Source: an uncultured Eubacteriales bacterium (GTDB taxonomy: Bacteria > Bacillota > Clostridia > Peptostreptococcales > Anaerovoracaceae). Taken from it: a stretch of 64,000 bases of DNA. The stretch spans positions 1-64,000 of the forward strand of contig CADBXM010000001.1 in assembly GCA_902798745.1 (NCBI GenBank). Direction: 5' to 3'. The position numbers and the translations under genes were made by a program. Shown piece by piece: positions 9,891 to 35,270 of the stretch (position 1 is its first letter; each line of letters opens with the position of its first letter). The notes under the pieces are model-generated. The model was not told the origin of the DNA, made no database searches, and saw only the letters and a list, made by a program, of their open reading frames with translations.

Positions 9891-10742
9891 TCACGAAAAA
9901 GCCATGCTGCTTGTCCCAAAGATGTCCGAAATCACCTTCGTTATCTGTGTAGAATCGACATTCCCATCCTTATCATTAAATATGAAGAAGAGGTCAACTC
10001 CCGGTGTGTATCCGCTTGCGATATATCTGCCTACTCTACGCGCGAAATCTTCGCGGTATTCTTGGCGATCCAGTCGCCCAACGAATTCGACTATGATCTC
10101 TGTTTTCATATCGACTGGAGATAATATGGTAAAGTCAGGATACAGTGGCGGCCCGTGATCATCCGCAGGAAACGGGAGTTCATAGATTTGAACCAGTCCT
10201 GCAGCCTTGAATCTTTCATACAAAACCAATTCACTGATCGTTTTTACCAGTATCCCGTCTGATGTCCGATGTTTTTTATACTGCGGATAGTTCTCCGGAA
10301 AACGTTTCTGGAATTCAAGTCGCTCAGACCTCCATTTCATGCCTTCACGCTCATAAAGCTCCGATACAGGTGGCACCTCACACCTGTATATCTTCGGCAG
10401 GTTATCATTGACTGAGTTCAGATCAAAAGGAATATAATTCTCTGTCAGAGACTTCATAAGATCGATATCCTGATCTAGGCGCCGGATTGCCTCTTCGAGA
10501 TACTTTGCCTCGCGAACCTTCTCGATTTCACTTCGATTTGACTGATTGATATAGCTGTACCTATCGGAACCGGCGCGCTTAATATAATAACAACCATTGC
10601 CGTTCTTGCGTTTCGAATGACGAAGAAAAGCGCCCTTATATCCATGAAGAGACTCCAGGCGCGTCGTGTATTCCGACTTCATCCGCTCCATCAACTTTCG
10701 TTCATAATTAATTCTATGGTTCAACTCTGCATTCATATTCAT
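9891..10742 (-). CDS. Uncharacterised protein with PD-(D/E)XK nuclease-like C-terminal domain
   Basis: A 283-residue protein. Residues 1-115 are charged and helical, with coiled-coil character (INYERKLMERMKSEYTTRLE; KVREAKYLEEAIRRLDQDIDLMKSL). The C-terminal half carries an order of motifs seen in many Firmicute hypothetical proteins of restriction-nuclease-like fold: TISELVLYERFKAAGL (helix with Glu), LYPDFTIL (Asp), then EIIVEFVGRLDRQEY (Glu without the usual ExK lysine). The lysine position is not conserved, so nuclease activity is uncertain. It is a single gene flanked by a terminator on one side and 880 bp of repeats on the other, suggesting an accessory locus. A clear Shine-Dalgarno is missing before the ATG at 10742. 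Confidence 0.6.
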   Translation of the reverse strand: MNMNAELNHRINYERKLMERMKSEYTTRLESLHGYKGAFLRHSKRKNGNGCYYIKRAGSDRYSYINQSNRSEIEKVREAKYLEEAIRRLDQDIDLMKSLTENYIPFDLNSVNDNLPKIYRCEVPPVSELYEREGMKWRSERLEFQKRFPENYPQYKKHRTSDGILVKTISELVLYERFKAAGLVQIYELPFPADDHGPPLYPDFTILSPVDMKTEIIVEFVGRLDRQEYREDFARRVGRYIASGYTPGVDLFFIFNDKDGNVDSTQITKVISDIFGTSSMAFS

Positions 10743-10958: not shown

Positions 10959-11291
10959 GTCACGTCTCAATGCCCTAAATTGGTTATGAAGCGTGACAAA
11001 AATCACGCCGCTGTCCATAATGTGATGTTGAGACGTGACACCGATCTCGACAGCAGCTCAATGACCGAATGATTAGTAATCGTATTGTATTTTTATTCGT
11101 TGGTTCTATGCAGTTTCTTGCCTGACCGAGGCAGAATAACCAAAATTCAGTTCGATTCCATGTAGAACCTTTGTTTATGGATTGCCTGAAAGGTCTTTTG
11201 CTCGGAAAAAGTCACGTCTCGCAATTGTTTTTTACATTGAAGCGTGACAATTATCACGTCTCGCGGGCTGAAAATGAGATTGAAGCGTGAC
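10959..11291. repeat. Two units of four alternating 10-bp arms (GARRCGTGAC family)
   Basis: Eight copies of GARRCGTGAC occur in strictly alternating orientation. Unit I has reverse 10959-10968, forward 10988-10997, reverse (degenerate) 11002-11011 and forward 11030-11039. Unit II has reverse 11211-11220, forward 11239-11248, reverse 11253-11262 and forward 11282-11291. Start-to-start offsets are 29/14/28 and 28/14/29 bp. Neighbouring arms can pair as hairpins, so each unit has alternative folds. No gene lies between 10743 and 11621. The segment between the units (11040-11210) shows nothing further that I can support. The same geometry with different arm sequence is found at 34932-35215. Confidence 0.75.
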
Positions 11292-11306
11292 TCAATTTAT
11301 ACATTT

Positions 11307-11451
11307 ATATTCATCAACCCGATTTATTAACTATATTCATATATATATTCATCAACCTTATTTATTAGCTATATTCAAATATAATCATCAACCACATCCA
11401 TCTACTATACTCATAAAGAATCATCCATACTCAGCAATTATATTCATCGAC
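11307..11451. repeat. Degenerate 36-38 bp AT-rich tandem repeat, about four copies
   Basis: TCATCAACC recurs at 11311 and 11349 (38 bp apart) and 11385 (36 bp), with weaker copies TCATCCAT at 11421 and TCATCGAC at 11444. A second marker, CTATATTCA or CTATACTCA, recurs at 11331, 11369 and 11405 with the same period. The tract is very AT-rich and adjoins the alternating-arm repeat on its left and the malic enzyme promoter on its right. Confidence 0.65.
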
Positions 11452-34835: not shown

Positions 34836-34931
34836 AACCATCTAGACTAACCACAGCGCTTCGGTTTGGAAAAGCCGAGCGGCTGTCGGATTATCTTCGA
34901 AATATAGTCCTGGTGACTATCTTTAACAAAG

Positions 34932-35215
34932 ATAGTCTATTAGAGGGCTGTTTGCATAGAAATGGACTAACATTGTTAGTCCATTTCTTATGATGTAGTG
35001 GGGAAATAGACTAACTAGAGGGCAGAACAACGATGGATCAAGTCAGATTATGCGGCGAAAATGGAGTATAACGGCTTAAAACAGCTGAAAATCTTTGTTC
35101 TGTAAGCCATTCCAGCGAATAATTTTGAAGAAGTTAGTCTATCAGAGCGCTCTTTTTATAGTTATGGACTAACACTATTAGTCTGTTTGTTATGATCTTG
35201 CGGGAAACAGACTAA
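34932..35215. repeat. Two units of four alternating 10-bp arms (TTAGTCYATT family)
   Basis: Eight arms of TTAGTCYATT alternate in orientation. Unit I is at 34932, 34961, 34976 and 35005; unit II at 35134, 35163, 35178 and 35206. Offsets are 29/15/29 and 29/15/28 bp. The inner pair of unit I is a perfect hairpin AATGGACTAAC-ATT-GTTAGTCCATT (34961-34985). The two units are about 75% alike over 85 bp. The intervening 35015-35133 holds nothing I recognise. The geometry equals that at 10959-11291 although the arm sequence differs. Confidence 0.75.
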
Positions 35216-35270
35216 TCCCACAGAAGTATATTTGTTGACTCGCTTGTAGCCGATTTAGGATCGATAAGTA

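Follow-up and report, generated by a model that had tools for sequence, protein, structure and literature searches.

REP and REPIN elements with their TnpA-REP (RAYT) enzymes are the closest described systems to the element analysed here. In the published accounts, a small enzyme gene lies beside its own class of short inverted repeats of alternating orientation, gene-free copies of the repeats occur elsewhere in the genome, and repeats and enzyme differ together (PMC3116915, PMC8266576, PMC2817692), and a further account gives the REP palindromes as 20-40 bp (PMC3733652). The arrays reported here are similar in that cognate repeats were found beside the gene (at 52 of 103 loci in one set and 29 of 40 in another) and that gene-free cognate copies were found in genomes G106, G029, G010, G002, G003 and G006, though not in the source genome. 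They differ in that the enzyme is PD-(D/E)XK-like, whereas RAYT is an HuH (Y1) transposase; that the arms are half-sites of 8-14 bp in phased arrays instead of palindromes of 20-40 bp; that their periodicity follows duplex DNA and not a folded single strand; and that the gene is often present in several copies per genome. Since the gene is not an HuH transposase, the system would work like REPIN/RAYT without being a member of it.

Other known systems share some of these features. The end sites of Tn7 are bound by TnsB; TnsA of Tn7 and Bax1 are fold neighbours of the family proteins, with weak E-values (0.12 and 0.005, respectively), and none of TnsB, TnsC and TnsD was noticed beside the close loci. 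Iterons are direct repeats accompanied by a replication initiator, and the present arrays resemble them, as well as phased operators, in consisting of what appear to be repeated protein sites at whole-turn spacing, but differ from iterons in that the arms alternate and the gene is nuclease-like. In CRISPR and type III toxin-antitoxin systems an array of short repeats also stands beside a gene for a nuclease-like protein, but those arrays are direct repeats with unique spacers, whereas here alternating half-sites are spaced by helical turns, and no cas-like neighbours were noticed in the loci read. No published account of such arrays was found in the open-access literature, covered mostly through titles and the beginnings of abstracts, which is weak evidence of absence. 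That many Clostridia relatives of the gene have alternating inverted-repeat arrays beside them, at whole-turn spacing, points to an undescribed protein-DNA system, resembling REP elements but with a different enzyme.

Four-arm units in the source genome

The window, that is, the whole stretch of 64,000 nucleotides that was analysed, carries two loci of four-arm units, B and A, and besides these the source genome has two further loci with two units each:

9891-10742, minus strand: PD-(D/E)XK-like gene, 283 aa, with B1 and B2 upstream of its start
10959-11039, unstranded: unit B1, four arms at 10959-10970, 10988-10997, 11002-11011 and 11028-11039, from direct reading and scan
11211-11291, unstranded: unit B2, four arms at 11211-11222, 11237-11248, 11253-11264 and 11280-11291, from direct reading and scan
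34932-35013, unstranded: orphan unit A1, four arms of TTAGTCC type, the family gene not detected in the fetched flank
35133-35216, unstranded: orphan unit A2, four arms of TTAGTCC type, ~202 bp after A1
~1471-1554 and ~1661-1744 of the contig 11 locus (L023): four-arm units
~1464-1547 and ~1652-1735 of the contig 21 locus (L027): four-arm units

The first-pass annotation had described locus B as eight alternating GARRCGTGAC arms in two units. Both the alternation and the two units were found again by reading and by scan, but the consensus is exact in only six of the eight arms, the third arm deviating from it at two bases in B1 and at one base in B2. The offsets given there, 29/14/28 bp in B1 and 28/14/29 bp in B2 with the units 252 bp apart, were reproduced in the same two ways when the 8-mer register begins at 10960 and 11212, and the spacing of 21-22 bp between dyad centres is half of the 42-44 bp that separate like-oriented arms. 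Its second locus, with different arms and matching spacing, was also recovered by the scan, which gave offsets of 29/15/29 and 29/15/28 for locus A. According to the lists of open reading frames, locus A and the contig 11 locus sit between convergent genes, and they are thus not promoters of a neighbour gene.

To see how common the layout is, a four-arm scan tolerating up to 4 mismatches among the 24 positions of arms 2-4 was applied to a sample of 464 kb, comprising the window and 20 stretches of 20 kb, or about a quarter of the source genome. The scan returned 12 register rows, 11 of them on the four units of the window and a single one elsewhere at the weakest allowed score, in comparison to two rows, both at that weakest score, in one Markov-shuffled copy.

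Two further repeats were observed next to the units. Immediately after B2, at 11303-11447, there are three to four imperfect tandem repeats of ~33-38 bp. A 10-bp hairpin, GACTATCTTT-AAC-AAAGATAGTC, at 34912-34942 shares bases with the first arm of locus A, and the alternating arms of this locus may therefore continue upstream. Integron attC sites have outer boxes of the form RYYYAAC...GTTRRRY; attC was rejected as a candidate on reading, the outer arms being oppositely oriented and the arms of locus B being GTCACG.

Arrays beside copies of the neighbour gene

A covariance model built from six units gave matches with E <=1 in 9 of the 47 genomes of the genus, the source genome included, where it returned its six units, their reverse strands and one weak match (E 3.4). 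Reading of the matches revealed other arm classes, among them four-arm units of differing arm sequence, and also alternating arrays in tandem; the tandem matches with periods of 63 and 75 had been considered as CRISPR, which was rejected when they proved on reading to be alternating inverted arms. The link to the gene was first found in genome G070 (L047), where a homologue of the gene at 9891-10742 lies beside an array. This nuclease-like gene beside locus B, absent from the first-pass annotation, is the key to the element.

By the strict four-arm scan, 8 of the 15 closest gene loci carry units (the window's own, L082, L087, L088, L089, L090, L092 and L093), of which L089 is doubtful; six of the eight have two units, and every unit is upstream of the gene. 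The remaining 15 of the 30 gene loci gave one further match, and the control gave 1 match per shuffled set of 30. When like arms were required to be 39-46 bp apart, a second scan recovered units at 8 of 18 close loci, gaining L163 and losing L092, and at no shuffled locus. The arms differ by species, being GTCACG, TTCGTSC, TTGGTGC, TTGGTAC, CTGATACC or GGTGCA. The earlier claim that the geometry is selected withstood the refutation test proposed in the first-pass annotation, a lack of the spacing in related genomes, as these hold four-arm units with closely similar offsets and other arms.

Diverged relatives of the gene were found to carry longer alternating-arm arrays than the four-arm units, with up to 20 arms at one gene. 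With an array called as a chain of at least 4 alternations of one 9-mer, 52 of the 103 gene loci of the taxonomic family had an array in comparison to 2 of 80 slices from their own genomes (Fisher 3e-14) and none of 103 shuffled loci, all run at identical settings. For the independent set from other Clostridia families, an array was present at 29 of 40 gene loci in comparison to 0 of 40 shuffled loci and 10 of 60 slices from the same genomes (Fisher 2e-8), the chains in these 10 slices being in part orphan or gene-linked arrays and in part chance-like. At least 6 alternations were found at 33 of 103 gene loci against 0 of 80 slices for the family, and at 20 of 40 against 4 of 60 for the other families. 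At the threshold used, 51 of the 103 family loci and 11 of the 40 other-family loci are without an array. An own-genome control with a shorter gap limit and shorter slices gave a chain in 1 of 100, and among 19 other loci a chain was found in two, one of which coincides with a gene locus (L014 and L095 are the same place).

Helical phase of the arms

The distances between like-oriented arms cluster at 42-44, 52-54, 61-65, 72-76, 83-88, 93-96 and 104 bp. As copies within a locus are tandem duplications, each locus was counted once. For the first set the Rayleigh statistic at 10.5 bp was R=0.69 (n=52 loci), and trial periods from 10.4 to 11 fit about equally, so that these data fix the period at ~10.5-11 and not at exactly 10.5. 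The period of 10.5 bp was fixed before the second set was fetched, for which R was 0.79 (p=1.3e-8, n=29 loci). Among arrays with at least 6 alternations, 50 of 53 depart by no more than 2 bp from a multiple of 10.5 bp, where 20.2 are expected, the three exceptions being 76, 87 and 87.5 bp, and when one of these loci was drawn per genome (34) or per genus (12), p was less than 0.05 in all 2000 draws. Among weaker chains the off-phase distances are 38.5 (three related loci), 49, 67 and 72. Unit-to-unit distances of 189-292 bp, collected by hand at 11 loci, were phased too (R=0.73, p=0.003), with periods of 10.0 and 10.4 fitting slightly better, 9.0 giving p=0.02 and 11 not fitting. Whole-turn spacing would be explained by proteins on one face of the duplex and not by RNA, and the helical phase favours the former; the first-pass suggestion of proteins bound on one face is in agreement with the whole helical turns seen between like-oriented arms across the wider family.

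The neighbour gene and its product

The gene family is present in 42 of the 47 genomes of the genus, often in several diverged copies each, in 125 of 393 genomes of the order (123 of these in the same taxonomic family), and in 36 of 391 genomes sampled from the class (31 of these in other families). In the two members of the order outside the family the domain lies inside open frames of more than 1200 aa. The 22 relatives from named genomes belong to Mogibacterium sp. (goat and sheep gut), uncultured Clostridiales and one Lachnospiraceae.

The 283-aa protein matched no NCBIfam family and no Pfam family at E 0.01, with one Pfam match below the cut-off (E 0.035), and a sequence search of the PDB gave no match for the family protein. 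In an alignment of 27 relatives (3 of 30 were left out), all 27 sequences share E171, D203 and E219, in the order E...PDF...IIxExxG, while the position of the lysine of the ExK motif is occupied by V or another residue such as Q. We read this pattern as a probable PD-(D/E)XK site without the conserved lysine, and nuclease activity is therefore not assured. The AlphaFold2 model of the protein has a mean pLDDT of 85, and its top three Foldseek chains were TnsA of Tn7 (best probability 0.97, E 0.12). For the model of a diverged member (pLDDT 80), a Bax1 complex ranked first (probability 1.00, E 0.005), followed by R2 retrotransposon, Card1 and TnsA chains; neither of the two models gave a fold match with E <0.001. 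A weak Pfam TPD match was found in 1 of the 27 members, and the C-terminal end of PADLOC PDC-S68 was matched by all 27. Assignment to the superfamily is tentative, with three acidic residues constant in 27 of 27, the K variable, the fold E above 0.001, and the C-terminal domain of PDC-S68 matched. Membership in the defence candidate PDC-S68 itself was rejected, since the match covers only profile positions 1097-1219 of 1221 and the protein has 283 aa in comparison to ~1200 aa.

The source genome has a second, very diverged gene copy at ~1214-1420 of L224 (G000:C11), with the motif WEHLG; the four-arm scan found no unit there. Just upstream of this copy lie three hairpins, two of them with similar ATTATACATTT arms.

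In viral contigs no family member was confirmed, and 3 of 50,697 phage records matched. One record labelled as faecal phage, MT839528.1 (4.2 kb), holds a relative whose match to a class-wide family member has 31% identity and spans 87% of that member. The plasmid search gave 10 records, all with partial matches and mostly annotated as AAA ATPase or helicase.

Close orthologues were found at several sites, beside an alcohol-dehydrogenase-like, TusA-like or MATE-like gene, while in the source genome the gene lies between an ABC permease and malic enzyme (all names by reading). The gene is downstream of the GntR operon in the source genome and precedes that operon in four relatives, and genomes G025, G012 and G009 have copies at two sites. 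The varied sites suggest movement or rearrangement; a site-labelled tree did not resolve movement, and the flank of locus A had no DNA match in the 46 other genomes of the genus, which leaves no empty site for comparison.

Orphan arrays and correspondence of arms to protein

To look for arrays away from the gene, 12 gene-linked arrays were joined into one query and searched against 16 genomes at E <=0.01. Four of the 12 segments matched their own genome beyond the source locus, in G106 (many times), G029, G010 and G002, while 2 of 180 pairs of segment and foreign genome matched (G003 and the source genome), both through single hairpins of the G026 type. No gene copy was present in 19 of the 20 fetched match stretches. 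In eleven stretches of G106 the period is 86 bp, as in the gene-linked array of that genome, and the arms, up to 28 in number, are related to those of that array; the orphan periods are 75 in G029, 53 in G010, 64 and 63 in G002, and 63 in G003, with arms and period as in the gene-linked array of the same genome. Gene-free arrays cognate to a gene-linked array of the same genome were thus found in five genomes (G106, G029, G010, G002 and G003). Another stretch of G002 (L259) had no array, and two stretches of G032 have arrays for which no matching gene-linked array is in hand. In G006 an orphan unit pair shares TTCGTSC arms with its gene. The orphan TTAGTCC arms of the source genome resemble those of relatives and differ from its gene-linked GTCACG arms, and the latter may have changed later.

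Single hairpins with nearly identical TTTGGKACGGAAGT arms were seen at different places in the source genome and G003 (L238 ~1500-1546 and L237 ~1503-1548), and they match a gene-linked array of G026. Three alternating arrays of 9, 13 and 12 arms, with a period of mostly 53-55, were seen within 14 kb in L330 (G646:C1:300001-314400), and no gene copy was detected in that stretch.

Across 33 loci, arm similarity and period were each correlated with protein identity (Mantel r=0.20, p=0.0015, and r=0.39, p=0.0005, respectively), a result which is expected for co-evolving pairs and equally for common descent.

Interpretation and alternatives

The explanation that we regard as likely, taken as a whole, is that the small PD-(D/E)XK-like protein encoded next to the element uses it as a docking array of double-stranded DNA, that this protein represents an undescribed multi-copy family in Clostridia, and that such arrays are dispersed in the genome. 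Array-gene linkage, arm diversity, helical phase and the cognate orphans of several genomes were read directly from sequence, while binding of the arms by the protein, its nuclease activity, the copying of arrays and any benefit to the cell are what we infer from them. Each gene copy would be paired with its own arm sequence, and successive alternating arms would form dyads, each able to hold a dimer; with like-oriented arms 4 to 10 whole turns apart, bound dimers would line up along one side of the helix, and the two units might come into contact. Arrays might reach further intergenic sites through cleavage followed by repair or copying, and locus A would be an example of the gene-free orphans so produced. 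More tentatively, and with somewhat less than an even chance in our estimate, this would amount to a self-spreading two-part system of Clostridia, in which a stand-alone PD-(D/E)XK nuclease acts on phased duplex half-site arrays, cleavage-coupled repair copies whole arrays to new intergenic sites, and arm sequence and turn number (4 to 10) co-vary with the protein, which would provide a natural library of nuclease-site pairs.

That the protein binds the array merely to control its own gene, the orphans being control sites or relics and no copying taking place, we judge unlikely. Phased sites are usual for regulators, units lie upstream of the gene in close orthologues, and the array is 5' of the gene in 23 of 29 cases in the second set, a bias which suits autoregulation; but the family arrays are evenly divided, 26 being 5' and 26 being 3' of the gene, as many as 20 arms stand at one gene, no gene copy was detected in fetched stretches holding orphans of up to 28 arms, and locus A and the contig 11 locus have convergent neighbours. 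The alternative offered by the first-pass annotation, an RNA with alternative stems, lost ground and now appears quite improbable, whether the transcribed units simply fold into nested or alternative hairpins or also serve, for instance, as antitoxin or other RNA partner to the protein. Whole-turn spacing, extending even over 189-292 bp, has no obvious meaning for RNA, arrays occur on either side of the gene, and neither the window element nor 17 array loci matched Rfam at the gathering score. An array beside a small nuclease-like gene is found in some RNA-based systems, as it is here, and six of eight source-genome units folded better than almost all of their shuffled versions (z -2.5 to -6.2; the remaining two gave -0.2 and -1.0), but good folding is expected anyway from inverted arms. 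The covariation of arms, which the annotation had proposed as a check, was scored on only six sequences, and the score, above all six slid versions, was reached by 111 of 500 shuffles; an RNA element with nested stems, attractive at first sight, was set aside as the less supported reading.

Paired units, orphan copies without the gene and the several sites of orthologues would also suit the view that the units are transposon ends, of the classical DNA type or of a MITE, which an unrelated transposase moves together with the nuclease-like gene as cargo. We hold this to be very doubtful, as arms flank the gene on both sides in just 4 of 33 long-array loci, which tells against a MITE, arms and period track the gene copy, and no transposase was noticed among the compared close neighbours. 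Least probable of all are centromere-like or chromosome-organising sites, bound by the family protein or another: phased multi-site arrays and the many dispersed arrays of G106 would fit such sites, but the arms differ between gene copies of one genome, and no partner gene was recognised.

If the docking-array reading is true, it would be another instance of the REP/RAYT lifestyle, with unrelated chemistry, in which an enzyme is linked to dispersed cognate repeats but acts on duplex DNA with spacing in whole helical turns. As several genomes have more than one gene-array pair, with differing arms and turn numbers, recognition rules, co-evolution and dispersal would be directly testable. It would also account for a class of intergenic repeats in Clostridia for which no name was found.
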